Under the pieces are notes generated by a model. That model searched no databases, had not been told where the DNA came from, and worked only from the letters and a program-made list of their open reading frames with translations. From Holdemania massiliensis AP2 (lineage in GTDB: Bacteria > Bacillota_I > Bacilli_A > Erysipelotrichales > Erysipelotrichaceae), in NCBI RefSeq assembly GCF_000327285.1, contig NZ_HE998567.1:981737-1016597 (forward strand): a stretch of DNA of 34,861 nucleotides, given 5' to 3'. Positions 1 to 16,257 of this stretch are shown here, piece after piece. Numbering within the stretch: the stretch's first letter is position 1; each line of letters begins with the position of its first letter. The position numbers were made by a program, and so were the translations under genes.

Positions 1-1233
1 TTATTGACGGAATATTACCGCCGCGACTGGCCGATGACGCTGGAGGAATTCTACCGCAGCCCTTCGCTCAACCAGCAGCGTCTGCTGCTACGGCAGGCCG
101 CTGAACTGGCTGTCACACCAGAAAGTTTCACACCGCAGAAAATAACGCCGGCCGTTCAGGCACCGGTCAATCTGGATGTCGTGTTAATCAGCGGCGGCAG
201 CGGCTACTTTGGTCTGCATCTGATCCAGGCGCTCTTTGACCTGAAACTTTCTTCCCGGATCTTTGTTTTAAGCCGGCAGGACCGCAGCGTTGTTTTCGAG
301 AAAGCTGCGCAGCTTTTAGGTCAGGACTGGGTTACGAAACATCAGGCCAAACTCGTTTGTCTGAAAGCCGATCTGCACGATCCGCAGCTGGGACTTTCAG
401 CCTCGGCCTACGCGCTGATCACCTCCCAGATCACCTGTGTCATTCACAGCGCGGCTGAGGTTCGTCACTATGGACAGCGTGAACAATTCCTGCGCGCCAA
501 TGTCGAAGCCACCGAAACGATGCTCGCCGCCGCACGCCAGGCGCATGTGCCGTTCATCCATGTTTCAACGCTTAGCTTATGCGGTACAGTTTTAAAAGCT
601 CAGCCGCAGCAGCCGGCGGTCTTTACTGAAACGGATCTGGACATCGGACAAAACTGGCAGGATAATCTTTACATCGAATCCAAGTTTATGGCTGAGCAGC
701 GTGTGCTGGCGGCCCGCGATGAAGGTCTGCCGGTGCGGATTCTGCGCTTAGGCCGCTTAGTTGGACGTCACACCGACGGTCAGTTCCAGCTCGCTTACCA
801 AGACAACGCGTTCTGGCGAATTTGCCAAGGACTGCTTCAGGTCGGGATGCTGCCGGCGGCATTGGCTGAGATGTCAGTAGAAGTGAGCGCCGTAGACGAA
901 TGCGCCCGGGCTGCCGCTTTGATCTGTACGACAACGCTGTGCGTCGCGCATCTGGCCAATCCCCATCCGCTGACGTTTAAAGAAATTTTCTACGATCTGC
1001 CGCAGGTCAGCGACGCCCAGTTTCAGCAGCAGCTGAAGACAAAGCAGAAACACGACGCGCTGTTAGGCAGTCTGATTGAAGAAATGAACGCGCTGCAAAA
1101 ACAGCCGCCGCAGATTCAGGCCGACTGCACGCTGACCTTGAATGCCCTGCGTCAGGTTGAATTTACGTGGAGTATCCCCGATCCGGACAAGGAACTGCGC
1201 AGCCATCGATCAAAGCGAGGTGAAAGCGAATGA
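1..1233 (+). CDS. Thioester reductase domain protein, 5' end cut by window (probable NRPS/reductase C-terminus)
   Basis: This is a NAD(P)H-dependent thioester reductase of the extended SDR fold, the type that releases a carrier-bound acyl or peptidyl chain as an aldehyde or alcohol. The frame is open to the first base, so the gene very likely continues upstream. Counting from the TTG at position 4, a nucleotide-binding motif GGSGYFG lies at 64-70, HSAAEV at 148-153, HVSTL at 186-190, and the catalytic pair in YIESK at 223-227. The first 30 residues (DWPMTLEEFYRSPSL) resemble the last helices of a carrier domain, which would fit the end of an NRPS; this is an inference. No carrier serine motif is visible. 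The stop overlaps the kinase start as ATGA, so it heads the visible part of a six-gene operon. A carboxylic acid reductase is the main alternative to an NRPS. Confidence 0.85.
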   Translation, partial: LLTEYYRRDWPMTLEEFYRSPSLNQQRLLLRQAAELAVTPESFTPQKITPAVQAPVNLDVVLISGGSGYFGLHLIQALFDLKLSSRIFVLSRQDRSVVFEKAAQLLGQDWVTKHQAKLVCLKADLHDPQLGLSASAYALITSQITCVIHSAAEVRHYGQREQFLRANVEATETMLAAARQAHVPFIHVSTLSLCGTVLKAQPQQPAVFTETDLDIGQNWQDNLYIESKFMAEQRVLAARDEGLPVRILRLGRLVGRHTDGQFQLAYQDNAFWRICQGLLQVGMLPAALAEMSVEVSAVDECARAAALICTTTLCVAHLANPHPLTFKEIFYDLPQVSDAQFQQQLKTKQKHDALLGSLIEEMNALQKQPPQIQADCTLTLNALRQVEFTWSIPDPDKELRSHRSKRGESE

Positions 1234-3104
1234 TTTCCAATACGGCTTTAATGACGTTTTACATTTCCATCATCGGTCTGGTGATGATCATCTCCCGCAA
1301 TCTCAGAACCAACCGCTCCCATCTGATCAATAAGATTTATGCGTTCTTAGCCTTGGCGCTGATCGAATGGATGATAGCGCTGATCGGCATGCGCTTTTCA
1401 CGCCCGGATGATCAGATCGCACTTTATTTTTGGGATGCACTGTCCAATCTCGGCGTTTCTCTGACCCCGGTGCTGTCGCTTCTGATTGCGATTGTCTTTG
1501 TCCGCCATTACGCCCGTCTGCCAAAAAAGACGGCCTGGCTGTTTGTCATTCCGCTGCTGACCAACATCATGATCTGGACCAATCCGCTGCACCATCTGCA
1601 TTACCGGCAGTTCAGTGTAATTGCCAGCGAAGTGGTGTTCGGGCCGTACATGCTGATCAGCGGCGGCTACAGTTATCTATGCATGCTGCTGTCCATTCTG
1701 ATCATCATGAACTTTGCTTTTAAAAGTCATAACTCACTGTATATGCGCCAAGCTCTGCTCTTTTCGCTGGGCAACCTGATTCCCTTTGCCGTCAGTATGC
1801 TGGCGACGTTCAAGATTCTCAACCTGAGCATTGCGGCGACGCCGATCAGCTTTGTCTTTACGGTAATCTTTCACGGCATCGCGATTGAAAGGCTGAATTT
1901 TCTCAACATCACCCCGATTGCCACCCAGCACATCCTCGATTGGATCTCCGATGGTTATCTGATCCTCAGCGATACCGGTCTGGTGCTCAATTACAATCAG
2001 CCGTTTGCGGATATCTTCGGACAACGCTGCGGGATTCTGGTCAACCGCTCGCTCAAGGACATTCAGATTCCGGAAGACAACGCCGCCCAGACCGCGATCC
2101 GCAATCTGATCAGCTCGGTCGATTCCGCCCGCGACAGCGGCAGTACGATCGTTTATGAACAATCGATTGTCAACGGTGGTCAGATGTATTACTACATGGT
2201 CGAAATCACACCATTAAAGATCGACGATACCATCGCCGGCTTCAGCGTCATCTATAAAAATGTCACGACGCTCAAGGAAAGCATGCAGAAGCTGCAGAAA
2301 TCCCAAAAACAGATGATGGAGCGCGAACGGCTGGCAACCCTGGGACAGATGGTCGGCGGCATCGCGCACAATCTGAAAACACCGATCATGTCGATTTCCG
2401 GTGCGCTCAGCGCGATGGAGGACCTGGTGCGTGAATGTGAAGAAAGCTTCGGCGATCCGGAAGTCACAGCCGCCGATTATCGTGAAATCAGCGGTGAAAT
2501 GACCGACTGGATTCGCCGCTGCAAGGACTCCTGCGCTTACATGTCGGATATCATCACGGCCGTCAAGGGTCAGGCTGCCAACATGAACGCCTCGGAAAAA
2601 GTGGCGTTTACCGCAGAAGAGCTGATCCGTCGGACAACGCTGCTGATGCGGCATGAATTAACCGTCAGCGGCTGCCGCCTGATCACCGACAACCAGACCG
2701 CACCGACCGTCTTGCTGCACGGCGACATCAACAATCTCGTTCAGGTCGTCAACAACTTCGTCGCCAATGCGATCGACGCCCAGCTGCCCGAAGGCGATCA
2801 CACGATCACACTGACTGTCAAGGAGCAGCAGGGCAATCTGATTTTAACGGTCAGCGATCATGGCAGCGGCATTCAGGACAGCGTCCGCCGGCATTTGCTC
2901 AACGAAATGGTCACGACCAAAGGAGCGGCCGGGGCAGGATTGGGCATCTATATGTCCAAAGCGCTGATTCAGGGCAAATTTGATGGCGAGCTGTGGTTTG
3001 ACGACAACCCCGGCGGAGGGGCGGTCTTCGGCTTTACCATTCCGCTTTCTTCCGAAACTGTGGAAGAAAGCGCAGACATTCAGGAAAGGAGGGATTGGGC
3101 TTGA
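1230..3104 (+). CDS. Membrane sensor histidine kinase with 7TM-type sensor and PAS domain
   Basis: This is a sensor kinase of 624 residues. The N-terminal third (about 1-225) contains seven or so hydrophobic segments like the HisKA 7TM sensor region. A PAS-like domain follows at about 230-345 (DWISDGYLILSDTGLVLNY). The dimerisation helix carries GGIAHNLKTP with the phospho-acceptor His near residue 380. The ATPase domain shows NNFVANAID (N box), SDHGSGIQ (G1) and GAGLGIYMSK (G2). It starts at an ATGA overlap with the reductase and its stop overlaps the start of the receiver/HD-GYP gene, so the two are almost certainly partners. What the sensor detects cannot be read from the sequence. A kinase inside a carrier-protein biosynthetic operon is uncommon. 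Confidence 0.93.
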   Translation: MISNTALMTFYISIIGLVMIISRNLRTNRSHLINKIYAFLALALIEWMIALIGMRFSRPDDQIALYFWDALSNLGVSLTPVLSLLIAIVFVRHYARLPKKTAWLFVIPLLTNIMIWTNPLHHLHYRQFSVIASEVVFGPYMLISGGYSYLCMLLSILIIMNFAFKSHNSLYMRQALLFSLGNLIPFAVSMLATFKILNLSIAATPISFVFTVIFHGIAIERLNFLNITPIATQHILDWISDGYLILSDTGLVLNYNQPFADIFGQRCGILVNRSLKDIQIPEDNAAQTAIRNLISSVDSARDSGSTIVYEQSIVNGGQMYYYMVEITPLKIDDTIAGFSVIYKNVTTLKESMQKLQKSQKQMMERERLATLGQMVGGIAHNLKTPIMSISGALSAMEDLVRECEESFGDPEVTAADYREISGEMTDWIRRCKDSCAYMSDIITAVKGQAANMNASEKVAFTAEELIRRTTLLMRHELTVSGCRLITDNQTAPTVLLHGDINNLVQVVNNFVANAIDAQLPEGDHTITLTVKEQQGNLILTVSDHGSGIQDSVRRHLLNEMVTTKGAAGAGLGIYMSKALIQGKFDGELWFDDNPGGGAVFGFTIPLSSETVEESADIQERRDWA

Positions 3105-4636
3105 GAAAAAATCGCAAAGGCGCCGTTTCCAACGAGTTTCGGCTGTTGGTTCTCGATGATGATGAAATGATCACCCTGGCGCTGCGTTCTTATTTTCAGG
3201 GCAGCGGCTATCAAGTAGAGATCGAAAGCGATCCGCTGAAAGCCATTGAACGTGTCCGGCAGGAACATTTTGATATCCTGCTGCTGGACTTTCTGATGAG
3301 TCCGATCTGCGGCGATAAGGTCGTCGAACAAATCCGGCAGTTTAATCATGAACTGTTCATTATTCTTCTGACAGGACATAAGGATCTGGCGCCGCCGGTC
3401 AAGACGATCCGGGAATTGGATATTCAGGGTTATTATGAAAAAAGCGACAAATTCGACCAGCTGGAGCTGCTTGTCGAATCGTGTGTGAAATCCATTCGGC
3501 AGATGCGCACAATCCGCAGCTATCGCGACGGCTTAGGCGAAATCGTTGCCGATATGCCGCTTTTAGTGGAAGAAAAAAATTTGTCGCAGCTGATCCCGCT
3601 GATCGTCAGTCAGACCCGTTCACTGACCCGGCAGGATAATGTCTTCGTGCTGCTCAATCCGTTAACCGTACCACAGGTCAGTGAGAAGCTGACGTTAGTC
3701 TCCTCCTTGATGCTCAGCGGCAGCGGCGATTATTCGCTCGATGCGACGCAGTTCATGAAACGGCATTTTCCCCGCTTTCTGCCGCTGATCCAGGCCGCCA
3801 AGCTGCAGGGAACAGCCGCGCTGCAGGATCAGCAGCTGGTGCTGCCGCTAAAGGATGAGAACGAACAGTTTCTCGGCGTGATCGGCGTTGACTTTGATGA
3901 ATTGCCGTCCGCCACGGTCATCCAGCTGATGGAAGCCTATGGTCACCAGGCTTCCTCGGCAGTCGCCAGCACCTATCTGCATACGCTGCTGCAGGACAAA
4001 AACAAGGAACTACTGGAAACCAATCAGCTGTTGAAAGAAAACTACATGCAGACGATCACCGCGGTGCGGTTAATGGTCGAAGCCAAGGATATCTATACCC
4101 GCGGTCATTCCGACCGCGTCAGCTATTATACGCTGCTTTTGGCCCGCCGGCAGATCAGCGACAAAGACCAGCTGGAAAAAATCCGTCTGGCCGGCCTGTT
4201 CCATGATGTCGGCAAGATCGGCGTGCCGGATTCCATTTTAAGCAAACGCGGCCCGCTGGATGAAGAAGAATATCAAGCGATCCGGCGGCATTCGGCGCTG
4301 GGTTATGAAATTTTATCGACGATGTCGTTCTTCCAGGATATCGCTAAGATTGTGCGCAGCCATCATGAACGCTGGGATGGTCAGGGCTATCCGGATCATC
4401 TGTCCTGTACGGCGATTCCGCTGGCTTCGCGGATGATCGCCGTCGCCGATGCTTTTGACGCAATGACCTCATTTCGCTCCTACCGCAGCTGTTTGTCGAT
4501 GGAACAGGCCCGCGCAGAGCTGATCCGCAACAAAGGCACGCAATTCGACCCGCAGCTGGTCGATGAGTTTCTGGAAATTCTGCAGGGCTATGATGAAATT
4601 CGTTCCCAACTGGAATGGACTTTCCATGAGCTTTAG
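3101..4636 (+). CDS. Response regulator with HD-GYP output domain
   Basis: This protein has an N-terminal receiver and a C-terminal HD-GYP domain, the class that usually hydrolyses cyclic di-GMP. I chose the TTG at 3101 because GGAGG at 3088-3092 lies 8 bases before it; the TTG at 3095 is too close. Counting from 3101, the acidic DDD cluster is at 19-21, the phospho-acceptor Asp in LLDFL at about 63, and the conserved Lys in YYEKSDK at about 114. A GAF-like region covers about 150-295. HD-GYP motifs are complete: HSDRVS, the HD of LFHDVGKIGVPD at 368-369, HHERWDGQGYP at about 421-431, and ADAFDAMTS. There is no DNA-binding domain, so the output should be a second messenger or a protein contact. 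The start overlaps the kinase stop. Activity on cyclic di-GMP is inferred from the family. Confidence 0.93.
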   Translation: MRKNRKGAVSNEFRLLVLDDDEMITLALRSYFQGSGYQVEIESDPLKAIERVRQEHFDILLLDFLMSPICGDKVVEQIRQFNHELFIILLTGHKDLAPPVKTIRELDIQGYYEKSDKFDQLELLVESCVKSIRQMRTIRSYRDGLGEIVADMPLLVEEKNLSQLIPLIVSQTRSLTRQDNVFVLLNPLTVPQVSEKLTLVSSLMLSGSGDYSLDATQFMKRHFPRFLPLIQAAKLQGTAALQDQQLVLPLKDENEQFLGVIGVDFDELPSATVIQLMEAYGHQASSAVASTYLHTLLQDKNKELLETNQLLKENYMQTITAVRLMVEAKDIYTRGHSDRVSYYTLLLARRQISDKDQLEKIRLAGLFHDVGKIGVPDSILSKRGPLDEEEYQAIRRHSALGYEILSTMSFFQDIAKIVRSHHERWDGQGYPDHLSCTAIPLASRMIAVADAFDAMTSFRSYRSCLSMEQARAELIRNKGTQFDPQLVDEFLEILQGYDEIRSQLEWTFHEL

Positions 4637-4651
4637 AAAGGAGATGTCCTG

Positions 4652-6322
4652 ATGCGAACTTATCCGAACTATCCCGCTGACACTTACCCTACTTTCCGGT
4701 GTTATCTGGAAGGCATCAAAACCCAATTTGGCGCGCGGGATGCGATTGTCAGCTTCTCCCCTCGGGGTGAACGCTTCAGCCGCACCTACAAGCAGCTGGC
4801 GGAAGACGTGCAGGCGCTCAGTGAAGCGTTTCGGCTGTTTCTGCCGGAAGGCCATGCCGCGATTCTCAGTGAAAACAGCTACGGCTGGCTGATCACCTAT
4901 CTGGCGCTGATCCTCAGCGGCCGCACCGCCGTCTGTATGGATACCGAGCAGCCGGAAGAAATTTTAACCGAAATGATCCGGCACACAGACTGCACCACCG
5001 TCTTTGTTTCCCCGGCCTTCCTGCCTTTGACTGACTCGCTGCGGCACCAATGTCCCAAGCTGCAGAAGGTTCTGCGGCTGAGCTACGATGAAGACGACAG
5101 TTTAAAAGCACTGTGGCTGAAAGGTTTGACGCTGGTCCGCGAACATCAGGGCGACTGGTCTTTTCCTGATCATGACGGCAGCTTCACGGCCTCGATTGTC
5201 TACACCTCCGGTACGACCAGCGTTTCCAAACCGGTCATGCTGAGTGAAGCCGGGATTCTGCTCAATGCCGCCGACTCGATGCGCTTAGTCAGCATCGCGG
5301 ATACGATGTATACCTCCCTGCCCTTCTATCACACTTACGGTCTGACCTGTTCGGTCATCAACATTCTGCTTCATGGTTCGACGCTGTGCATTAACGGATC
5401 GTTGAAAACCATGCTTCGGGATTTGAAGACCTTTGCGCCGGAAAACATGATGGCCGTTCCGCTGATCGTTGAAATGATGCACCAAAATATCTGGCGGACG
5501 TTAAAAAACCAAGGCCAGGAAGCCAAGATGCGAAACTATCTGAAGCTGTACCGGATTGTCCATCGGTTCGGCTTTCGGCCCTTCCCTGCCTTCTTAAAGC
5601 CGATCCGGGAAGCCTTCGGCGGCCGGCTGAACATGATCGTCTGCGGCGGAGCGCATCTGTCGGAAAAGATCGGATTAGAAATGGAAGCCTTCGGCTTTCA
5701 GATCATTCAGGGCTACGGGATTACCGAATGCTCGCCGCTCATCAGCGTCAACCGCAATCTCGACAGCCGCGTCGATACCGTCGGCCATGTTCTGCCGGGC
5801 ATTGAACTGCGCTTAATTCAGGGAGAGATCGCCGTGCGCGGGACCTCGGTGATGCAGGGCTATTATAAAAATGAAGCACTGAGCCAAGAGGTCTTTGACC
5901 AGGGCTGGTTTCTAACCGGGGATCTGGGCAGTCTGGATTCCCGCGGTCATCTGCGCATTACCGGTCGGAAAAAGAATCTGATCGTCTTTAAAAACGGCAA
6001 GAAAGTCTCGCCGGAGGAAATCGAACAGCAGCTGATTCCGCTGCCGCTAGTCAAAGAAGTGATGGCCTACGGTATGGGAGCGTCGGAAAATCCTGACGAT
6101 GTCCGGCTGGCGGTCATGATTTATCCGGATCCTCAAGCCACCGAAGGCATGTCGGCTTATGAGATTTTAGAGCAGCTGCAGGCCGATGTCGATCAGGTCA
6201 ACCAACAGCTGCCTTCCTACAAGCAGATTCAGATGATCAAGCTGCGGGAAACGGAATTTGAAAAAACAGCGACCCGCAAGATCAAGCGGCCGCCGATGCC
6301 GGAAAGGAGAAGTGAAGCATGA
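4652..6322 (+). CDS. AMP-forming acyl ligase (adenylating enzyme)
   Basis: This is an ANL-superfamily adenylating enzyme of 556 residues, which activates a carboxylic acid as acyl-AMP and passes it to a thiol. The P-loop-like motif YTSGTTSVSK is at 184-193, YGITECSPL starts at 355, TGDL is at 422-425, and the hinge region reads GRKKNLIVFKNGKKVSPEEIE. A Lys-rich tail near 546 (KTATRKIKR) fits the catalytic Lys of the mobile C-terminal domain. A GAAAGGAG site sits upstream of ATG 4652. The stop overlaps the start of the acyl carrier protein gene as ATGA, so the most likely acceptor is that carrier rather than free CoA; this is an inference from context. The substrate cannot be read directly; a fatty or aryl acid is plausible. 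Confidence 0.9.
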   Translation: MRTYPNYPADTYPTFRCYLEGIKTQFGARDAIVSFSPRGERFSRTYKQLAEDVQALSEAFRLFLPEGHAAILSENSYGWLITYLALILSGRTAVCMDTEQPEEILTEMIRHTDCTTVFVSPAFLPLTDSLRHQCPKLQKVLRLSYDEDDSLKALWLKGLTLVREHQGDWSFPDHDGSFTASIVYTSGTTSVSKPVMLSEAGILLNAADSMRLVSIADTMYTSLPFYHTYGLTCSVINILLHGSTLCINGSLKTMLRDLKTFAPENMMAVPLIVEMMHQNIWRTLKNQGQEAKMRNYLKLYRIVHRFGFRPFPAFLKPIREAFGGRLNMIVCGGAHLSEKIGLEMEAFGFQIIQGYGITECSPLISVNRNLDSRVDTVGHVLPGIELRLIQGEIAVRGTSVMQGYYKNEALSQEVFDQGWFLTGDLGSLDSRGHLRITGRKKNLIVFKNGKKVSPEEIEQQLIPLPLVKEVMAYGMGASENPDDVRLAVMIYPDPQATEGMSAYEILEQLQADVDQVNQQLPSYKQIQMIKLRETEFEKTATRKIKRPPMPERRSEA

Positions 6323-6546
6323 TAGAAAAAATTCTGGCGATCATCACCGAGGTGACAGGCCAGCAGCAGCTGACGCTGCAGACCGATCTGGTTCGGGATC
6401 TGCAGCTGAATTCGTTTGACGTTGTAAACATCATCATCGCGTTTGAAAACGAATTCGGGATTGAAATTGAGACTCAGCAAATCCGGCACATCCAGAAAAT
6501 CAAAGATATTGCCGACTATCTGGAGAAACAGGGCGTTCATGACTGA
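6319..6546 (+). CDS. Free-standing acyl carrier protein
   Basis: This small acidic protein of 75 residues has the four-helix carrier layout. The attachment site reads DLQLNSFDVVN, with Ser 32 as the predicted phosphopantetheine anchor; the usual D-S-L is N-S-F here, a permitted variation. The recognition helix after it (IIIAFENEFGIEIE) is typical. It overlaps the ligase stop by ATGA and its own last codons overlap the phosphopantetheinyl transferase start by 8 bases, so all three are translationally coupled. Its likely role is to accept the acyl group from the neighbouring ligase and deliver it to the reductase-bearing megaenzyme. It is unlikely to be the housekeeping fatty-acid AcpP, given its place and motif. 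Confidence 0.92.
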   Translation: MIEKILAIITEVTGQQQLTLQTDLVRDLQLNSFDVVNIIIAFENEFGIEIETQQIRHIQKIKDIADYLEKQGVHD

Positions 6547-7093
6547 AGCCGGACTGCGGTTGTTTTCAGGTTCTCTGGATTCCCTGTCCAGTGCCGGTCT
6601 GCTTCAGAAAGCGTTAAAGCGGCAGGTCGATATGGGAATCCTGCCGTTTGTCCCGACAGAGCGCACCCTTACGCCGAAGGGCAAGCCTTATTTCGCGGAT
6701 TTGCCCGCAATGCATTTCAGTATTTCCCACAGCGGCCAGCAATGGGTCTGTCTGTTTGCCAGTCAGCCGGTCGGCATAGATATTGAACAGCCCCGCCGCT
6801 GCCGTGAAGAAGCAATTGCGCGCCGGTTTTTCCATCCGCTCGAACAAGCCTGGCTGGCCAAGCATCCCCAAGCCTTTTTTCCTATCTGGACCGCGAAGGA
6901 AAGCTATGTTAAATGGTCAGGCTGCGGTATTGACAGCCAGTTTTCCCAGTTCAGCGTGATCGATGAGCATGGTGCGCTGTGCCAAGGGGATGGTTATCAA
7001 TTCATCCCGTTTGTCACAAAAAAAGGAACGCCCGGCACGATGTGCCTGAGCGCTTCCCTCAGTGAACGTTATCAAACTTACGAATTGGACTGA
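6539..7093 (+). CDS. 4'-phosphopantetheinyl transferase, Sfp type
   Basis: This enzyme transfers the phosphopantetheine arm from CoA to carrier-protein serines. I start it at ATG 6539, inside the end of the carrier gene, giving 184 residues; the frame is open further upstream but that part only shadows the carrier gene. Family motifs are clear: SISHSG at about 61-66, the metal-binding GIDIEQ at 79-84 (Asp 81, Glu 83), and WTAKESYVK at 117-125 (Lys 120, Glu 121, Lys 125). At 184 residues it is shorter than the usual 220-240 of Sfp, mainly in the N-terminal part. It is the last gene of the operon and would prime both the free carrier and any carrier domain upstream. Its 3' end overlaps the convergent ABC transporter gene by 16 bases. 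Confidence 0.92.
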   Translation: MTEAGLRLFSGSLDSLSSAGLLQKALKRQVDMGILPFVPTERTLTPKGKPYFADLPAMHFSISHSGQQWVCLFASQPVGIDIEQPRRCREEAIARRFFHPLEQAWLAKHPQAFFPIWTAKESYVKWSGCGIDSQFSQFSVIDEHGALCQGDGYQFIPFVTKKGTPGTMCLSASLSERYQTYELD

Positions 7094-7737
7094 AGCTCGT
7101 TCAGCCGAACGAACCGTGTTCCCGTCCGCCGGGCAAATTGTTCGTCATGCGTGACGACCAGGATGCCCAGTCCTTGTGCCGCCAGATCCTGAATGATCTG
7201 GGTGACATCCAGCGCGGATTGTTCATCCAGGGCGCTGGTCGGTTCATCAAAGCACAGGATTTCCGGTGCCAGCATGCAGGCTCGGGCAATCGCCGCGCGC
7301 TGCTTCTGCCCACCGGACAATGAATTAGGATAGGCCTGCGCTTTCTGTTCAATCTTGAGTTGTTCCAAAAGCCTGCGGGCTTTTTTTTCGGCTTCCTCCC
7401 GGCTCATTCCCTTTAAGCGCACCGGGGCTTCCGTCAGATTCCGCAGCACCGTCCAATGCGGAAACAGATTCCAGTTCTGAAACACCAGTCCGATCTTCTG
7501 GCGGTATTGCACCGGATCGCACCAGTGTCCATCCTGACATAATACTGTGCCTGAGAGTGAAATCGTGCCCTTTTCCGGTAGTTCCAGCCCGCACAGACAG
7601 CGCAGCAGCGTCGTCTTGCCCGCCCCGGAAGGTCCCATCAGACATACGATTTCCCCCTGATCAATCCGCAGCGATACATTTTCAAATACCGGATCGGCGC
7701 CAAAGGTTTTCGCGCATTTCTCAGCGATGCAGCTCAT
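7078..7737 (-). CDS. Polar amino-acid ABC transporter ATPase
   Basis: This is the ATP-binding subunit of an amino-acid uptake transporter, 219 residues. Walker A GPSGAGKT is at 35-42, the Q-loop is in GLVFQNWNLFPHWTV, the signature LSGGQKQR starts at 140, Walker B LCFDEPTSALD is at about 161-171, and the switch His is in VVTHDE (197). A GGAGG site 8 bases before the ATG overlaps the permease stop region. It is the third gene of a binding protein-permease-ATPase operon behind a T-box leader. Its last 16 bases run into the convergent phosphopantetheinyl transferase gene. Confidence 0.95.
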   Translation of the reverse strand: MSCIAEKCAKTFGADPVFENVSLRIDQGEIVCLMGPSGAGKTTLLRCLCGLELPEKGTISLSGTVLCQDGHWCDPVQYRQKIGLVFQNWNLFPHWTVLRNLTEAPVRLKGMSREEAEKKARRLLEQLKIEQKAQAYPNSLSGGQKQRAAIARACMLAPEILCFDEPTSALDEQSALDVTQIIQDLAAQGLGILVVTHDEQFARRTGTRFVRLNELQSNS

Positions 7738-7749
7738 CGTTTGTTCCTC

Positions 7750-8382
7750 CTAATAATAACTGATGCGTTTCTCGATCCGGCTTAAGATCCAGCTGAAGCC
7801 GCCGCACATCGCCAGATACAATAGACCGACGACGACAAACGGCAAGGCTGTCGCATACGTATTGACCGCAGACCGGCCGGCCTTTAACAGCTCGGAAGCG
7901 CCCAGCACATAGATCAACGAAGTGTCCTTGACCAAATTGAGCACCTCATTGCCAATCGCCGGCATGGCATTGCGCAGCGCCTGCGGCAGCTGAATCCGAA
8001 AGTAAATCGTGCGGCGGGAAAAGCCAAGCATCTTCCCGGCTTCCGCCTGCCCTGGATCCACCGCGCCCAACGCCCCGCGCAGGATCTCAATAAAGTACGC
8101 CGTGTAGTTCAGGGTAAAGGCAATCAGAATTGAGGCTTCCCGACTGAACGTCAGACCCAGGTAAGGCATTCCAAAAAAGATAAACATCAGCTGAAGCAAT
8201 AACGGCGTTCCCCGCATCAGCGTGATGTAGCCGCGAAACAGCGGTTTCAACAGACGGCCGGAAAACTGTTGGAACGCCTGAAGCAGACAAGCTAAGGGCA
8301 GCGAGAGCAATAACGTCAAAGCAAATACCTGCAGCGTAACGCCCGCCCCGGCGAGTAAGGAAGGCAGAATCTGTCGGATCAT
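7750..8382 (-). CDS. Polar amino-acid ABC transporter permease
   Basis: This is an integral membrane permease of the HisM/GlnP family, 210 residues from the ATG at 8382. I prefer this start because GGGGAA lies just before it and the start sits 2 bases after the binding-protein stop; a GTG at 8400 has no visible ribosome site. The protein has about five hydrophobic segments. The cytoplasmic EAA loop, which docks on the ATPase, reads EAGKMLGFSRRTIYFRIQLP, and the N-terminal segment ALTLLLSLPLACLLQ is typical. In this family a single permease usually forms a homodimer. Confidence 0.94.
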   Translation of the reverse strand: MIRQILPSLLAGAGVTLQVFALTLLLSLPLACLLQAFQQFSGRLLKPLFRGYITLMRGTPLLLQLMFIFFGMPYLGLTFSREASILIAFTLNYTAYFIEILRGALGAVDPGQAEAGKMLGFSRRTIYFRIQLPQALRNAMPAIGNEVLNLVKDTSLIYVLGASELLKAGRSAVNTYATALPFVVVGLLYLAMCGGFSWILSRIEKRISYY

Positions 8383-8384
8383 GC

Positions 8385-9188
8385 TTATTCCCCAAACCAC
8401 TTGGCGTTTAAGGCCGCCTGGGTGCCATCCTCGACGCAGGCCTGCATCGCTTCATTGATTTTGCTCAATAATGTCGCATCGCTTTTGCGCATCCCCACGG
8501 CATACTGTTCGGTTCCGAAATTGTCATCCAGTACTTTATATTTGTCCAGCCCTCTTTGCTTCATCACATACCGCGCCAGAACTTCGTCGACAACGATCGC
8601 CTGGGAACGGCCGGCTTCCAGATCCATAAAGCAGTCGATGTTGGTATCAAATTCTTCCGGAGCGCCGTTTTTTAACTTCGCCGCCAGTTCCGCCTCCGCC
8701 ATCACGGCTTCCAAGGCGCTGGATTCTTTCTGAACGGCAACGCTTTGTCCGGCTAAATCGTCCTTTGTCATGATGGCGGAATCGGCCAAGGTGATGATCA
8801 GCTGCCGGTTTTCCAGATACGGCTCAGAGAAGGCTACCTGCTGCTTCCGCGTTTCAGTAATCGAATATCCGTTCCAGATCAAGTCAATGTTCCCAGCGTT
8901 CAGCTCGGTTTCCTTCATCGACCAGTCAATCGTCTGAAATTCAAACGTCAGCCCCAGCTTTTCCGAAACCGCCTGCGCCATGTCGATATCATAACCGGTT
9001 AATTCGTTGTTTTCATCACGGAAGCCCATCGGCGCAAACGTATCGTCGATCCCCACCACGACTTTGCCGCGGGCCTGCAGCGTACTGTAGCTGTCCTGCT
9101 GCGCGGTCGTTTTCGCCTGACATCCGCTCATCATTAAAAGACCCAGACTGATCAAACTCATCCATACTTTTCTGCTTTTCATTTTCAT
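8385..9188 (-). CDS. Amino-acid ABC transporter substrate-binding lipoprotein
   Basis: This is an extracellular solute-binding protein of family 3 (267 residues). It opens with a lipoprotein signal peptide ending in LMMSGC, so the Cys at about 23 would be lipidated and anchor the protein outside the membrane. Binding-lobe motifs are present: VVVGIDDTFAPMGF, LTGYDIDMAQAVSEKLG, DLIWNGYSITETRKQQVAFSEPY and IVVDEVLARY. GGAGGAG precedes two closely spaced ATGs (9188 and 9182); either may be used. It is the first gene after the T-box leader. The amino acid it binds cannot be fixed from the protein; the leader's candidate specifier points to histidine, less probably threonine. Confidence 0.94.
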   Translation of the reverse strand: MKMKSRKVWMSLISLGLLMMSGCQAKTTAQQDSYSTLQARGKVVVGIDDTFAPMGFRDENNELTGYDIDMAQAVSEKLGLTFEFQTIDWSMKETELNAGNIDLIWNGYSITETRKQQVAFSEPYLENRQLIITLADSAIMTKDDLAGQSVAVQKESSALEAVMAEAELAAKLKNGAPEEFDTNIDCFMDLEAGRSQAIVVDEVLARYVMKQRGLDKYKVLDDNFGTEQYAVGMRKSDATLLSKINEAMQACVEDGTQAALNAKWFGE

Positions 9189-9260
9189 TTCTCCTCCACT
9201 TTTGATATAGCATGAAATGAAATTGAATCCCGAAATGGTTCGTTTTAGACCGCGGCCGCT

Positions 9261-9302
9261 AAAACAAAAACCCTCTCATCCTAAACAATAAGGACGAGAG
9301 GG
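9261..9302 (-). terminator. T-box intrinsic terminator
   Basis: CCCTCTCGTCC and GGATGAGAGGG form an 11-bp stem with one G-U pair and a 10-base loop, followed on the - strand by TTTTTGTTTT. It lies directly after the T-box core, so the competing antiterminator can form only when the 5' strand pairs with the core. Confidence 0.93.
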
Positions 9303-9551
9303 TACTTTTCCCTTCGTGGTTCCACCTTAATTTACTGCATTCCTCGCGAAATCCAGCCTCTTCGAGTACAAAGCTTCTATACTCTAGTACGATAACGGGT
9401 ACAGGTTCCGATCCAGCCTACTTGATTGCTCGTTCGGTGAATTGCTCCAAGATGTGTTCAGCCTGTTTTCTCATATTCCCTTGCACCAACCGGAAACTCT
9501 CTGGATGAGCGATCAAGGCTTACTTTTTCTTTTCATCGCTGTTATATCAAT
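9261..9551 (-). promoter_or_regulatory. T-box leader controlling the amino-acid transporter operon
   Basis: On the - strand the 5' leader shows T-box landmarks in order: an early AGTAAG, AGAGAG, the distal-loop GGTGCAAG, then GCTGAACACATCTTGGAG around the specifier loop, and the T-box core AAGGTGGAACCACG at 9328-9315, followed by a strong terminator. The known role is to sense uncharged tRNA and let transcription continue when the amino acid is scarce. After GAA the specifier reads CAC (9456-9454), a His codon; a one-base shift would give ACA (Thr). The T-box base after TGG is A, which would pair with a U73 discriminator and does not match the usual C73 of tRNA-His, so the identity stays open. 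Confidence 0.93.
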
Positions 9552-9557
9552 GACTGT

Positions 9558-9586
9558 ATGATAAATCCCCAAGGCCAACTTGTCAA
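9558..9586 (-). promoter_or_regulatory. Promoter of the T-box/ABC transporter operon
   Basis: TTGACA (9586-9581) and TATCAT (9563-9558) are separated by 17 bases, a near-consensus housekeeping promoter. The predicted start of transcription is near 9551, just ahead of the T-box stem I. Confidence 0.88.
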
Positions 9587-9634
9587 GCAGGAAATAACTT
9601 TTTTCTGAAACTTTTTCTTTACTTTTCAGAACTT

Positions 9635-10504
9635 TCAGTCACAATCATGCTGCATTTCAAGCGATTTCAGCCTTGTTTTCGATTCTTTCTCCGACCTTGC
9701 GCCTCTCAGGCAGGACCGTTGAAAAGCGGATCTTCCCGACCACCCCTGCTGCATCAGCCAGAGCATCATGATCAGGTTCTGCGATAAAAGCTTCGCTGCC
9801 CAACAGCTGATCTGTGTCAAAATTCCATAAATTGAATGGGATTTGCCTTTTCGGCTGTCAGCCAATGCTTTCTGAGCCACGGGGACGGGATTCGTAATCG
9901 GAAACAAACGGGTAACGCTGGGATGCGTATTCGTCTTCGCTTTCATGATAAACGGCGTTCTCATCCAGCACGGACAAACTGAGGTGACCGATATTCCCCG
10001 CGGCTTCAGCTCCACCGCCAGTGCCATGGAAAACCGGTCGATAAAGGCTTTGCTTGCGGCATACACACTGAAATAAGGCAACGGCTGAAAGGCTGCCTGG
10101 GAAGCGGTATTAATGATGCGGCTGCCTGCCGTCATATAGGGAAGACAAATGGACGTCATCGCGATGACTGCCCGGCAGTTTAAGTCAACAATCTGCACGG
10201 CATCCAATGTTTTTATTTTTTCAAACGGTCCAAATTTTCCGCTTCCCGCATTGTTGATCAGCCAGAATATCTGCGGCTGTTCAGCAGTTAAACGGCGATG
10301 GAAGTCAGCCAGCTGACCTGGATCGGTCAGATCGATTTGAACCGGAATGATCCGCTGGCCAAAATCCTGTACCAGCCGCTGCAGCCGAGCCGGGGTTTTC
10401 GCCAAGGCCCAGACTTCATCAATATTTGGATCTTCCGCTATCCGTTGGGTATATTCCCGGCCTAACCCGCTGTCAGCACCGGTGATGATCGCGATTTTCT
10501 GCAT
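9635..10504 (-). CDS. Short-chain dehydrogenase/reductase
   Basis: This is a classical SDR of 289 residues, an NAD(P)-dependent oxidoreductase. TGADSGLG at 8-15 binds the cofactor, NNAG is at 84-87, and the catalytic Ser 135, Tyr 148 and Lys 152 are in NTAS and YAASK. The C-terminal tail after about 200 is longer and more basic than the core family needs, with a hydrophobic stretch (LIMMLWLMQQGW) that may contact membrane. CAGGAGG lies before the ATG. It stands alone on the - strand upstream of the T-box promoter. The substrate is unknown; it should not be given a specific name. Confidence 0.88.
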   Translation of the reverse strand: MQKIAIITGADSGLGREYTQRIAEDPNIDEVWALAKTPARLQRLVQDFGQRIIPVQIDLTDPGQLADFHRRLTAEQPQIFWLINNAGSGKFGPFEKIKTLDAVQIVDLNCRAVIAMTSICLPYMTAGSRIINTASQAAFQPLPYFSVYAASKAFIDRFSMALAVELKPRGISVTSVCPCWMRTPFIMKAKTNTHPSVTRLFPITNPVPVAQKALADSRKGKSHSIYGILTQISCWAAKLLSQNLIMMLWLMQQGWSGRSAFQRSCLRGARSEKESKTRLKSLEMQHDCD

Positions 10505-10842
10505 ATAAGCCTCCTGTTTTCCCAGCTTGATTTCAGACGCTTTTCATTCTGCCTTAATCCTAAGTTGGATAAAGCATGAAAGCTTCTTTACGTTTAGTAT
10601 GGCTTAATGAACAAAACGGGAACCGGAAAAAAACGCTGCCTTTTTTAACCTGTATGGACGCTAAAGAAAGACTGACCTTTCGGTCAGCGTGATGTTAATT
10701 CAATTATAAGTTTTCATCAATCCTGCTAATGATTATTAAATAATCGATAAGAGTCTTTTCTGCGGCTTTTAGTTTGTTGTAATATTTGATGTTGTATTTA
10801 CAGCAGAATCGGATATATTGGTAGTAGGAAAGAAGTGATCTC
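10505..10842. other. Intergenic region between divergent genes, with an inverted repeat at 10672-10687
   Basis: This 338-base gap separates the SDR gene (-) from the antitoxin gene (+). It contains CTGACC-TTTC-GGTCAG at 10672-10687, which could be an operator of the TetR kind or, on the - strand, a 6-bp stem with a GAAA loop followed by TCTTTCTTT. No regulator gene adjoins it. Near 10792 TTGTAT and TATATT about 16 bases apart make a plausible promoter for the antitoxin. The rest is AT-rich with no supported gene. Confidence 0.5.
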
Positions 10843-11103
10843 ATGCCAAACATTAAACCGATATCTGATTTAAGGAACTACTCTGATGTACTCCGGGATG
10901 TAACCGTAGACTCTCCTGTATTTTTGACAAAGAATGGGCGCGGGCGCTATGCCATTATTGATATACAAGATTATGAAGAAATGAAAGCTACCCTTACGCT
11001 GATGAATGAACTTGCAAAAGGGAGAAAGTTGGGAGAGGAAAAGGGATGGCTTTCATCGGATGATGTAAGGGCACATTTCAAGGCAAAACGGAATGGCTTA
11101 TAA
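10843..11103 (+). CDS. Phd/YefM-family antitoxin
   Basis: This small protein (86 residues) matches the Phd/YefM antitoxin pattern: an N-terminal DNA-binding part (MPNIKPISDLRNYSDVLRDV), the strand pair SPVFLTKNGRGRYAIIDIQDYEEM, and a charged C-terminal tail that would wrap the toxin (EEKGWLSSDDVRAHF). Such proteins repress their own promoter and neutralise a RelE/ParE toxin. The toxin frame that overlaps its last codons is reduced to a stub, so this looks like an orphan antitoxin. Base composition is AT-richer than the neighbouring genes, which would fit transfer. Confidence 0.9.
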   Translation: MPNIKPISDLRNYSDVLRDVTVDSPVFLTKNGRGRYAIIDIQDYEEMKATLTLMNELAKGRKLGEEKGWLSSDDVRAHFKAKRNGL

Positions 11104-11167
11104 CCTACACTACTCTCCAGAGGCATTGAATGATCTGGACGAGATACAGGAGTATATTGAAAAATAA
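11093..11167 (+). pseudogene. Truncated RelE/ParE-type toxin remnant
   Basis: An ATG at 11093 overlaps the end of the antitoxin gene, the usual arrangement. It opens MAYNLHYSPEALNDLDEIQE and stops after 24 residues. That opening matches the first helix of RelE/ParE-family toxins, which are normally about 90-105 residues. No continuation of the fold is visible in the other frames downstream, so the rest has been lost rather than shifted by one base. Confidence 0.75.
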
Positions 11168-11316
11168 CAAAAAATACTCCCTTTAATGAAACCGTTAGAT
11201 TTTCCAGCGGTTTTTCTTATGCCTAAAAACGGAGGTGAAACATTTGGCTTATTTTTTCTAAATTTTACACTACAAATATAAGCGAATACTGCCTGAGGCC
11301 TCTGAAAAAGCAAACA

Positions 11317-11362
11317 AAAACAGGACAGAGTCCGTATACTCAGACTCAAAAAGTCCTGTTTT
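11317..11362 (-). terminator. Terminator after the alpha/beta hydrolase gene
   Basis: AAAACAGGAC and GTCCTGTTTT form the outer stem, and GAGTC/GACTC an inner stem. On the - strand it is followed by TTTTTGTTTG, so it ends the hydrolase transcript; it could also work on the + strand. Confidence 0.75.
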
Positions 11363-11385
11363 GAAAAAATAATGACAGAAAAGAG

Positions 11386-12195
11386 CTAATCCTTCAGAAA
11401 TTCAAACACCACACGATTAAAATCACGAGCCTCTTCGTAGGCACTGTGTCCATAGCCTTGATAAATTTTTAGCTGGCTGCCCGGAATCAGCCGGGCAAGC
11501 TCACCTGCCGAATCCCTGCCCAGAACCTGATCCTGATCCCCGCCCACGACCAGCACCGGACATCGAATGCTGGAAATGAATGCAGCACTGTCATGGCCGA
11601 GGCAGGCGTGCGCCTGAATGATAAAACTGTTCAGACTTTTCGGCCGCAGGATCCGGGCCAGAACCGGATTGAACGGGCGCTGGATTCTGACCCGCCCAGG
11701 GGTATAGATTTTTTCGGCCATATCCGCGAACAGACTTGGGAAGTCCGCTTGTTCCGCAAGCGAAATCCAATGCGAAATGACGCTCCGGGACGTTTCATTC
11801 TGCCGGCACAGCGTAACTGCCAGAACCAGCTTTTCAACCCTCTCGGCAAAGTCAGCCGCCAGATACTGAGCGATCATGCCGCCCTGAGAAATCCCCACAA
11901 CATGCGCTTTTTCAATTCCCAGCTGCTTCATCGCCCAGGCCAGATCCGCAGCCATGTCGCGGGTTGAACAATTTGGCTTCAGTTTGTTTTTGCGGCTGAA
12001 TACATAAACCCGATAATCGTGGGCAAACCTTCGGTACAGAAACGCGAACATCAGCGCCGACCCTTTAACCGATTTCAGTGAATCCCCCAAACCGGGAATA
12101 AAAATAAGCGGTTTGTGTCCCTTACCGAAAACAATATAATCCATTTCGGTTTCTTCCATGTTCAGTGTGCCGTTGTCAGCGTTATAGATCATCAT
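11386..12195 (-). CDS. Alpha/beta-fold hydrolase
   Basis: This is a serine hydrolase of the alpha/beta fold, 269 residues from the ATG at 12195. AAAGGAG lies 5 bases before that ATG; an upstream TTG at 12213 overlaps the ribosome site and is rejected. The nucleophile elbow is GISQGG with Ser 103, the oxyanion region IFIPGLGDS is near 31-39, the acid lies in VVGGDQDQ (Asp about 220), and the base in QGYGHSAYE (His about 250). No signal peptide. It lies 67 bases downstream of the M20 amidohydrolase gene on the same strand, so they may be cotranscribed. Substrate unknown. Confidence 0.9.
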   Translation of the reverse strand: MMIYNADNGTLNMEETEMDYIVFGKGHKPLIFIPGLGDSLKSVKGSALMFAFLYRRFAHDYRVYVFSRKNKLKPNCSTRDMAADLAWAMKQLGIEKAHVVGISQGGMIAQYLAADFAERVEKLVLAVTLCRQNETSRSVISHWISLAEQADFPSLFADMAEKIYTPGRVRIQRPFNPVLARILRPKSLNSFIIQAHACLGHDSAAFISSIRCPVLVVGGDQDQVLGRDSAGELARLIPGSQLKIYQGYGHSAYEEARDFNRVVFEFLKD

Positions 12196-12262
12196 CGGTA
12201 CTCCTTTGTCCAAGCGTAAAAAGACCGCGTCGGAATTTCAGTTCTGTCTGCTCAGACCTTCC

Positions 12263-13363
12263 TTACAAATCAATATTCATCAATGCCAGATCCGTTTTAA
12301 TTCCTTCCTGCAGCACCTGTTCATCAAAATTGAAATGACAGTTATGCAGCGCGATTCCAGTACCGGTGCCTAAGAAAAAGAACACACCCGGAATTTTCCG
12401 CTGGTAAAAGGCAAAATCTTCGGCGATCATTTCCGGTTTGTCAAGCACCTGCAGCTGCGGCAGTAACGCCTGAACTTTTCCAAACAGACCGGCATCATTG
12501 ATCACCGCCGGATAGCCTTCGGTATAATCAAACAAAATCTGACAGCCGGTTTCCTGTTCCAGCTGATGCATGATCTCTTTCGTCTGGTCGATCATCCAGT
12601 CGAACGTGGCATCCTGAAACGACCGGTAGGAGCCTTCCAGCACCGCCGTTTCCGGCAGAATGTTGCGTACCGTGCCGGCATGGAAATTGCCGAACTTTAA
12701 GATGCGGTATTGGTTAGGCGCGATTTTCTTTTCCATTGCGTACAGCCGGCACAACAAATCGGCCGCGATGGCCAGCGCATCGATCCCCTCATCCGGTTTG
12801 GCACAGTGCGTACTCTTTCCTTTGACCGTGACCGTCACCTCACTGGCATGCGCCATCATTTCATCGCTGCGGCTGGCAACGGCCCCGGCTGGGATAAACG
12901 GCCACAGATGCGTGCCAAAAATCGCCTTGACGTTGTATTTTTCAAAGATGCCGGTATCACAGATCGGCTTGGCGCCGCCGACTGTTTCTTCCGAGGGCTG
13001 AAAGATCAGCAGGATATTATTCTTCCACTGCGTCCGATCCAGCTGATCCAGTTCCTGGGCAAAACCCAAAAGCATCGCCATGTGACCGTCATGACCGCAG
13101 GCATGCATTCTGCCCGGATGCCGCGAAGCAAAATCCAGTCCGGTTTCTTCCTGAATCGGCAAAGCATCCATATCGGCGCGGTAAGTCAGCGTTGCTTCTT
13201 TACCGGCGTCAAAGTAAGCCGCCGCTCCGGTTTCCAACAGCTCGATCACCTCGCAATGTAATGTTTTTAAAACAGAAACAACATATTCTTTGGTTTTAAA
13301 TTCGGTGAAGCTGGTTTCCGGAATCTGATGCAGATCCCGGCGAAATTGTGTCGCTTGATTCAT
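12263..13363 (-). CDS. M20-family amidohydrolase (metallopeptidase)
   Basis: This cytoplasmic metal-dependent amidohydrolase of 366 residues belongs to the M20D group, whose members remove acyl groups from amino acids or related compounds. Metal and catalytic motifs are YRADMDALPI at 61-70, MHACGHDGH at 86-94 and the Glu pair in QPSEETVGG (125-126); the dimerisation lid domain covers about 170-285 (TVKGKSTHCAKPDEGIDAL). The closing FFFLGTG and HNCHFNFDE segments also fit. AAAGGAG stands 8 bases before the ATG. N-acetyl-diaminopimelate deacetylase and hippurate-type hydrolases are both possible; no neighbour decides between them. Confidence 0.9.
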   Translation of the reverse strand: MNQATQFRRDLHQIPETSFTEFKTKEYVVSVLKTLHCEVIELLETGAAAYFDAGKEATLTYRADMDALPIQEETGLDFASRHPGRMHACGHDGHMAMLLGFAQELDQLDRTQWKNNILLIFQPSEETVGGAKPICDTGIFEKYNVKAIFGTHLWPFIPAGAVASRSDEMMAHASEVTVTVKGKSTHCAKPDEGIDALAIAADLLCRLYAMEKKIAPNQYRILKFGNFHAGTVRNILPETAVLEGSYRSFQDATFDWMIDQTKEIMHQLEQETGCQILFDYTEGYPAVINDAGLFGKVQALLPQLQVLDKPEMIAEDFAFYQRKIPGVFFFLGTGTGIALHNCHFNFDEQVLQEGIKTDLALMNIDL

Positions 13364-13451
13364 TCAGAACACTCCTTTCGTCCTTCTCTCTCATTCATTG
13401 TAACGAACTCTGCAAATTCGTCAAGCAAAGACGCACAGGCTCGCTTCAATT

Positions 13452-13460
13452 TGGTATAAT
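13452..13460 (+). promoter_or_regulatory. Extended -10 promoter of the FAD dehydrogenase gene
   Basis: TGG followed by TATAAT is an extended -10 element 22 bases before the gene start; no good -35 box is visible. Confidence 0.7.
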
Positions 13461-13481
13461 GAAGAACAGGAGTGATCAACA

Positions 13482-15068
13482 ATGCTGCAAATATCCAACC
13501 TGCAACTATCTCTGGATGAAAATCCTCAGAATCTGGAAGCCTTAATCATCAAGAAGCTGCGGCTGCGTCCGCACCGGCTGATGTCCTGGAAAATCGTCAA
13601 GGAATCGCTGGACGCGCGCAGAAAACCGCTGCGTTTTGTGTATACCGTGTTGGCTGAAACCCCGGATGAAGCCGCCATTTTAAAAAAGAAGCTGCCGCAT
13701 ATCAGCGCTGCCAAACCTGACGTTTATCAACCGCCTCAGCCTTCCCTCATCGCTTCAACACGGCCGATTGTTGTCGGTTTTGGTCCGTGCGGCATGTTTG
13801 CCGCGCTGTTGTTGGCGGAAGCCGGACTGCGGCCAATCGTGCTGGAACGCGGGGCAGACGTCGATCAGCGCATCCAGGATGTGGAAACCTACTGGCAAGG
13901 CGGACCGCTGAATCCCCAAAGCAATGTTCAGTTCGGCGAGGGCGGCGCCGGCACGTTTTCCGACGGCAAGCTGACCACTCGCGTCAAAGACGTTCGGATT
14001 GTGAAGGTCACCGATGAACTGATCGAAGCCGGGGCAGATCCGGAAATCGGATATCAGGCTCATCCGCATATCGGAACCGACCGGCTGCGGCAGATCGTAA
14101 AAAACATCCGCTTGAAGATTCAACATTTGGGCGGTGAGATTCATTTCAATACAACCCTGACCGGAATCAGCACCGATGCCAAGGGGCTCTGTGCGGTGCA
14201 GGCCGGCGCTTTGACCCTTCCCTGCCGTCAGCTGGTGCTGGCGCTGGGCCACAGTGCCCGCGATACCTTTACGATGCTGCATGAAGCCGGGATTGCGATG
14301 GAGGCCAAGGATTTTGCGGTCGGCGTGCGGGTTGAACATCCGCAGCGTCTGATCGATCAGAATCAATACAAGGAAGCCGCCGGCCATCCGCGCCTGAAGG
14401 CGGCTGAATACCGCCTCACCTGTCAGACTCAGGAAGGCCGCGGGGTTTATTCGTTCTGCATGTGTCCCGGCGGCACCGTGGTCGCCAGCGCCAGTGAAGC
14501 AGAAGCGATTGTGACCAACGGCATGAGCGAATACGCGCGCAGCCAGGCCAACGCCAACAGTGCGCTGCTGGTTCAGGTGCGGCGTTCGGATTTTGGCGAG
14601 GGTGTGCTGGACGGCATGCGTTATCAGCAAAAACTGGAACATCAAGCCTGGATTTTAGGCGGAAGCCACGGCCAGGCTCCCTGCCAGCGGATTGCCGATT
14701 ATCTGAACGGCCAAGCTTCATCAGCATTCGGACAGGTGATCCCCAGCTACAGCCGCGGGGTGACGATGACGGATCTGCATGCCCTGTTTTCCCCTTCGAT
14801 CAACCGGGCGCTGGAAGAAGCGCTGGCTGATTTCAATCAGAAGATTCCCGGCTTTACCGATCCCGATGCCCTGATGACGGGTGTGGAAACACGCTCTTCC
14901 TCGCCAGTCAGAATCCTGCGCGATGAACAGTTTCAAAGCTTAACCACTGCCGGCCTGTATCCGGCGGGAGAAGGCGCAGGCTATGCCGGCGGGATCGTAT
15001 CCGCGGCGATTGACGGGCTGCGCGTCGCGGAACAGATCATCCGCGATCAGGAAAACGTGAGGGATTAA
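13482..15068 (+). CDS. FAD-dependent dehydrogenase of unknown substrate
   Basis: This 528-residue flavoprotein matches the uncharacterised FAD-dependent dehydrogenases of the COG2509 type. An N-terminal region of about 90 residues (RRKPLRFVYTV) precedes the FAD-binding fold, where GFGPCGMFAALLLAEAG begins at 99 and the ribose-binding Glu is at about 122. FGEGGAGTFSDGKLTTR and ETRSSSPVRILR are further family blocks, and the C-terminal YPAGEGAGYAGGI closes the FAD site. It starts with AGGAG 9 bases before ATG. The ThrE-type transporter gene begins 2 bases after its stop, so they share a transcript. Confidence 0.9.
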   Translation: MLQISNLQLSLDENPQNLEALIIKKLRLRPHRLMSWKIVKESLDARRKPLRFVYTVLAETPDEAAILKKKLPHISAAKPDVYQPPQPSLIASTRPIVVGFGPCGMFAALLLAEAGLRPIVLERGADVDQRIQDVETYWQGGPLNPQSNVQFGEGGAGTFSDGKLTTRVKDVRIVKVTDELIEAGADPEIGYQAHPHIGTDRLRQIVKNIRLKIQHLGGEIHFNTTLTGISTDAKGLCAVQAGALTLPCRQLVLALGHSARDTFTMLHEAGIAMEAKDFAVGVRVEHPQRLIDQNQYKEAAGHPRLKAAEYRLTCQTQEGRGVYSFCMCPGGTVVASASEAEAIVTNGMSEYARSQANANSALLVQVRRSDFGEGVLDGMRYQQKLEHQAWILGGSHGQAPCQRIADYLNGQASSAFGQVIPSYSRGVTMTDLHALFSPSINRALEEALADFNQKIPGFTDPDALMTGVETRSSSPVRILRDEQFQSLTTAGLYPAGEGAGYAGGIVSAAIDGLRVAEQIIRDQENVRD

Positions 15069-15070
15069 CG

Positions 15071-15841: not shown

Positions 15842-16257
15842 TCAAGCTGATCGGCGCCTTTCTGGCTGAAATCGGATTCGGTGTGCTGTTTAATATCCAT
15901 GGAAAAAAACTGTTGGCTGCAGCGCTGACCGGAACGCTGGGCAGTTTGATTTACGAGCTGGTTCTGCTGGGACAGGCCGGGGAGATTCTCGCGATGTTTC
16001 TGGCTGCCTGTGGATTGTGTTTTGTCAGCGAAGTGCTGGCAAGATTGATGAAAACGCCGGTCACGACATTTCTGATCTGTGCGCTGATCCCGCTGGTCCC
16101 GGGCGGAGGCATGTATTATACGATGCTGGCAATCATTCAGGGCAATACGATGAGCGCGCTGGAGATTGGCATCCACACGCTCGGCTGCGCCGGCGCGCTG
16201 GCGCTGGGAATTGCGCTGACCAGTGCTTTTTTCTCACTTTCGATGAAAAAATCATGA
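15835..16257 (+). CDS. ThrE-type exporter, second half
   Basis: This 140-residue membrane protein matches the YjjB/ThrE_2 partner. It has about four to five hydrophobic segments and the family block LIPLVPGGGMYYTM. I start it at ATG 15835, which overlaps the end of the first half by 7 bases and follows GGAGG; the frame upstream is open but only shadows the first gene. The two proteins should form one transporter. A terminator follows directly. Confidence 0.9.
   Translation: MVIKLIGAFLAEIGFGVLFNIHGKKLLAAALTGTLGSLIYELVLLGQAGEILAMFLAACGLCFVSEVLARLMKTPVTTFLICALIPLVPGGGMYYTMLAIIQGNTMSALEIGIHTLGCAGALALGIALTSAFFSLSMKKS

Follow-up and report, generated by a model that had tools for sequence, protein, structure and literature searches.

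A predicted lipopeptide-aldehyde operon with a probable built-in two-component sensor in Holdemania massiliensis

Why would a gut bacterium encode a membrane sensor within an operon for peptide biosynthesis? The question is raised by six closely packed genes at the left end of a 34,861-nucleotide stretch of the Holdemania massiliensis AP2 genome (hereafter, the window; G000:C1:981737-1016597, in an assembly of 3.81 Mb and 17 contigs). It bears on the wider question of why gut bacteria make dipeptide aldehydes, compounds recognised as inhibitors of proteases. The genes encode the end of a nonribosomal peptide synthetase (NRPS), a sensor kinase, a response regulator, an acyl-activating ligase, an acyl carrier protein (ACP) and a 4'-phosphopantetheinyl transferase (PPTase), and the whole is probably best explained as an operon that makes a lipopeptide aldehyde and carries its own two-component sensor. 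An earlier note on this DNA had reported six plus-strand genes, overlapping or nearly so, at 1-7093, which the open reading frames, gene junctions and Pfam matches bear out. It described only four of them, however, and passed over the kinase and HD-GYP regulator, which on sequence comparison stand out as the best conserved and least usual part of the operon. The features are listed below, with condensation, adenylation, carrier and reductase domains abbreviated C, A, T and R, and with Pfam E-values unless stated.

1..1233, + strand: R domain, the C-terminal end of a C-A-T-C-A-T-R NRPS; open left edge, the rest lying to the left at L004:5361-11375 (NAD_binding_4, 8e-37)
1230..3104, + strand: seven-transmembrane (7TM)-PAS-HisKA-HATPase sensor histidine kinase, phospho-acceptor H380 (HisKA_7TM, 8e-35; HATPase_c, 2e-20; PAS_9, 1e-5)
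3101..4636, + strand: REC-DUF3369-HD-GYP response regulator with a TTG start, a predicted cyclic di-GMP (c-di-GMP) phosphodiesterase (Response_reg, 1e-15; DUF3369, 4e-11; HD_5, 3e-38)
4652..6322, + strand: stand-alone acyl-AMP-forming ligase of the acyl-CoA synthetase type, a predicted ACP loader (AMP-binding, 2e-51)
6319..6546, + strand: free ACP with attachment serine S32 in LNSFD (PP-binding, 1e-8)
6539..7093, + strand: Sfp-type PPTase, AusB-like (ACPS, 7e-17; top NCBIfam match AusB, 5e-16, under the model cut-off)

The Pfam domain scores of these genes far exceed chance. Four of the five gene junctions overlap, through ATGA (1230), TTGA (3101, where the start of the regulator overlaps the stop of the kinase), ATGA (6319) and 8 bases (6539-6546), and the regulator and ligase genes are separated by a 15-base gap (4637-4651) that contains an AAGGAG ribosome-binding site. 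Within the operon no promoter stood out (5 promoter-like sites versus 3.6 in shuffled sequences) and no terminator did so (7 terminator-like sites versus 6.3). Promoter-like sites, which are weak evidence, were found upstream of the NRPS gene.

All six genes are present in the same order in three other Holdemania genomes and in one distant genus of the family (G048), where a break within the NRPS gene divides the operon between two contigs. The closest named relatives of the source are Holdemania filiformis DSM 12042, Holdemania sp. Marseille-P2844 and an uncultured Holdemania. The GC content is ~33% for G048 versus ~54% for the operon described here, and identity to the G048 proteins amounts to 53% for the kinase, 50% for the regulator, 44% for the ACP, 43% for the ligase, 36-37% for the NRPS and 33% for the PPTase. 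The kinase was found in 5 of 273 genomes of the family, exactly the five that carry the operon, and a scan of 196 family genomes for the long NRPS match returned the same five. Two sets of five drawn from 196 genomes would coincide with an idealised probability of 4e-10, although the figure obtained by genus (2 of 60), 6e-4, is fairer because four of the five genomes belong to one genus. Searches with strict thresholds for the regulator (395 genomes of the class) and for the kinase (392 genomes of the phylum) gave matches only in Holdemania. The operon arrangement is rare in the sampled genomes.

The genes for the kinase and regulator sit between those for the NRPS and the ligase. Seven hydrophobic segments are visible in the kinase, and its phospho-acceptor histidine is intact and invariant in five orthologues. 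In each genome that carries the operon, it alone among HisKA_7TM proteins exceeds the curated cut-off. The regulator contains the motifs HDVGKIG and HHERWDGQGYP (HHERxDGxGYP), and the key residues of HD, HH and GYP are invariant in the five orthologues. No DNA-binding domain was recognised in the regulator with Pfam, so that its output is likely to be c-di-GMP hydrolysis. Matches to GGDEF number 28 in the source genome and 14 in G048, which indicates that a c-di-GMP network exists in operon-bearing genomes. Between H. filiformis and Marseille-P2844, the ratio of nonsynonymous to synonymous substitution rates (dN/dS) is 0.06 for both kinase and regulator, 0.08 for the ACP, 0.11 for the ligase, 0.19 for the PPTase and 0.22 for the R domain; the sensor pair is therefore under the strongest purifying selection among the genes tested.

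What the operon might make depends on the protein that is cut by the left edge of the window. The 6 kb upstream encode C-A-T-C-A-T, followed by a run of 362 N (L004:11376-11737 of contig C1) reaching right up to window position 1. Both edges of this gap carry an identical 9 bases: TTATTGACG stands immediately before the N run, and TTATTGACGG opens the window. The uncultured Holdemania crosses the gap point collinearly, with GGSSLQALMLLSEYYSRG corresponding to GGSSLQALMLLT plus LLTEYYRRD here, and the peptide across the gap point is LQALMLLSEYY in that genome against LQALMLLTEYY. On one side of the gap the alignment to Marseille-P2844 runs as far as query residue 1769, and on the other it starts at 1765. 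Given the shared edges and the collinear relatives, nothing seems to be missing, and the reductase is the C-terminus of an NRPS of ~2,412 amino acids. The gap thus appears to be spurious and of arbitrary length, with the NRPS frame broken only on paper. Single-frame versions of the NRPS are present in relatives (stretches L005/L105 and L007/L104), and in intact orthologues, as here, two A-T modules are joined in frame to the C-terminal R domain. A frame change and an N run interrupt the NRPS in the draft genome of H. filiformis DSM 12042 (L106, frames 8485-13584 and 13334-15940, minus strand), a break that may be an assembly error.

The domains and their order, the integrity of the motifs and the co-conservation described here were read directly from sequence. 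The nearest relative of the first condensation domain (C1) is the starter C domain of RzmA (7c1h, 107 bits), which acts in lipoinitiation (PMC7804268), with Txo1 as the next family at 83 bits. The second (C2) is nearest to the elongation domains of Txo1, TycC and LgrA (138-146 bits) and scores just 53 bits against RzmA, a comparison that serves as an internal control. C1 thus resembles a starter-type domain, a call made by similarity alone and not from a tree of C-domain types. Its HHxxxDG motif reads HHLISDG and is intact in every orthologue where it is readable. The C1 gate residue (Q or A here, against R148 in RzmA) was judged too weak a basis for predicting acyl chain length. Read by motif, the pockets of the adenylation domains are D-A-I-S-L-G-Q-I-G (A1) and D-V-T-T-I-V-C-V-Y (A2). 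Their residues are near-constant in Holdemania and mostly kept in G048, so that the same or similar building blocks are likely to be used across the operon-bearing genera. For the R domain, the best solved relative is the reductase of AusA, with T190, Y224 and K228 and the cofactor loop ISGGSGYFG aligned.

The ligase, whose relatives in the PDB include an acyl-ACP synthetase, is conserved together with the ACP in both genera, and S32 of the ACP is invariant in five orthologues; loading of the one by the other is a prediction. None of the operon proteins reached the cut-offs of the NCBIfam models for AusA and AusB. In G048, the PPTase (L107:8318-9313) appears by eye to be extended C-terminally by a GNAT acetyltransferase-like region.

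From the domain content we infer the chemistry of each step. The PPTase would arm the ACP and both T domains of the NRPS, and the ligase would adenylate an acyl acid and load it onto the ACP. The starter C domain would then couple the acyl group to the first amino acid, selected by the A1 pocket, and C2 would add the second, selected by the A2 pocket, before the R domain releases the chain. On these grounds (the C-A-T-C-A-T-R order, a starter-like C1, an AusA-like R domain and a separate ligase and ACP) the product is most likely an N-acyl dipeptide aldehyde.

Two other products have to be considered. Within the window alone the reductase seems to be separate, and a small stand-alone enzyme might work with the ligase and ACP to produce a fatty aldehyde or alcohol. 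The upstream sequence contradicts this and makes such an enzyme most improbable: here, as in the intact orthologues, a dimodular NRPS continues in frame into the reductase as its C-terminus. The earlier note had proposed looking to the left of position 1 for condensation, adenylation and carrier domains in frame with the reductase; these are what lies there, and no stop or unrelated gene intervenes. Of its two suggested products, each started by the ligase and carrier, the acylated peptide aldehyde is the better supported; the reduced fatty-acyl product is not preferred, since the route from loading to release leads through two complete amino-acid modules. The resemblance of the R domain and PPTase to AusA and AusB would accord with a pyrazinone, formed by cyclisation of a dipeptide without an acyl group, while the ligase and ACP act elsewhere. 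The AusA-type product was nevertheless rejected as improbable, on account of the extra N-terminal starter-type C domain with its intact motif and the retention of the ligase and ACP in both genera. Pyrazinones had also been proposed as related products; if the N-terminus is acylated they are unlikely, since on chemical grounds cyclisation needs a free amine.

Similar NRPSs occur in four genomes of another family of the same class. These are of the C-A-T-C-A-T-R type at 26-28% identity, several being cut by contig ends, and a PPTase adjoins wherever that side was readable. No kinase, HD-GYP regulator, ligase or ACP was found next to the NRPS in the four genomes. By this contrast, the set of ligase, ACP and sensor appears to be a feature of the Holdemania-type operon rather than a general companion of such NRPSs.

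The neighbours in that family form another signalling set beside an aldehyde-type NRPS: a SpoIIE phosphatase, a STAS protein and, in two of the genomes, a MatE exporter that carries a fused RsbW-like HATPase_c_2 domain (L119:5373-9593 in G269 and L121:5131-9365 in G253). Together the three make up a partner-switching set, whereas a third genome, G403 (L120:7137-9670), has the STAS and SpoIIE genes without a MatE gene.

For the sensor pair we infer a ligand and an output as follows. The 7TM-PAS kinase would read a membrane-accessible cue, most likely the lipophilic product or some signal linked with it, and would phosphorylate the REC-HD-GYP regulator, so altering the breakdown of c-di-GMP. That the kinase reads the product itself is a more tentative idea, and equally tentative is the full self-sensing circuit, in which the N-acyl dipeptide aldehyde made by the NRPS is the signal and is read out through the co-encoded kinase and HD-GYP c-di-GMP breakdown. 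The main alternative, a possible though not a probable one, is an ordinary gut lipopeptide aldehyde operon: the product would be a protease inhibitor and no self-signal, and the pair would sense an external cue (host factor, redox state or membrane stress) and merely adjust production or lifestyle. PAS domains often sense internal or environmental cues, and the pair is absent beside the similar NRPSs of another family, both of which agree with this alternative, as does the known action of gut dipeptide aldehydes as protease inhibitors (PMC12327764, PMC10039858). It accounts less well for the position of the pair inside the operon in both genera, for its occurrence within the family only with the operon, and for a regulator that carries no DNA-binding domain for direct control of transcription.

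Several points weigh against the main reading, a lipopeptide-aldehyde operon with its own sensor. The tie between the kinase ligand and the product consists solely of operon membership and co-conservation, and the AlphaFold model of the kinase (4 sequences; mean pLDDT 47) is too poor to use. Strong conservation and low dN/dS are common among signalling proteins, so that the low values support function and not any particular ligand. The A1 and A2 pockets match no confidently assignable code. Judging from the relatives in the other family, NRPS function does not in general depend on the sensor pair.

Downstream, the operon is abutted by a convergent amino-acid ATP-binding cassette (ABC) transporter (7078-9188, - strand; ATPase, permease and binding protein), whose stop overlaps the end of the PPTase gene by 16 bases. 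These neighbours are also found in the other Holdemania but not in G048. Further along, a PDDEXK_2 family transposase-like nuclease gene is located at 19568-20629 on the + strand.

Limited searching of the open-access literature returned nothing relevant on Holdemania with NRPS, or on gut peptide aldehydes with pyrazinones. The claim to novelty rests on the conserved sensor pair; the cluster itself has possibly been listed earlier. A synthetase tied to a dedicated sensor and a predicted c-di-GMP phosphodiesterase across two distant genera leads to a testable proposal, that the maker senses its own molecule, and it is practical to test because named Holdemania strains carry the operon.

An N-acyl dipeptide aldehyde is an already known kind of gut product, and ruminopeptin, one such compound, is N-acylated. 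The 'gut Clostridia-type' label in the earlier note is inexact, the host being Holdemania, a member of the Erysipelotrichaceae. What the operon shares with the rup cluster of Ruminococcus bromii, the source of ruminopeptin (PMC12327764), is a gut host and the release, predicted here, of a dipeptide aldehyde by a reductase. It differs from this and other gut dipeptide aldehyde clusters in its host family, and the 7TM kinase and HD-GYP regulator that it carries are possibly a further difference. AusA and AusB of Staphylococcus aureus, the nearest named relatives of the R domain and PPTase, likewise combine a dimodular NRPS, a terminal R domain that releases the chain and a partner PPTase. AusA is, however, organised as A-T-C-A-T-R and yields free-amine aldehydes that become pyrazinones (PMC12153313), whereas here an extra starter-like C1, a ligase and an ACP come first. 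A counterpart for the predicted loading step is seen in the gut bacterium Coprococcus eutactus, where the free ligase and free ACP of OaaA/OaaACP/OaaC supply a condensation domain, itself placed near starter domains, with a fatty acyl group. That system is a fatty acid amide pathway with a free-standing C domain and no peptide or reductase after it (PMC13142362).

The closest parallel to the sensor pair is RpfF-RpfC-RpfG of diffusible signal factor (DSF) quorum sensing in Xanthomonas, where the genes for a synthase, a polytopic membrane kinase and a c-di-GMP-linked HD-GYP regulator occur together (PMC12838280). No crotonase-type synthase of the RpfF kind was found with Pfam among the six operon genes, and the product here would be an acyl peptide aldehyde. 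The Rpf kinase is a hybrid with REC and Hpt domains and five transmembrane helices, whereas the kinase described here is 7TM-PAS-HisKA-HATPase, with no receiver or Hpt. Because synthase and kinase architecture differ, the likeness is one of analogy and not of membership. If the self-sensing proposal is true, the operon would give a human gut bacterium an Rpf-like circuit that has a nonribosomal lipopeptide as its basis.

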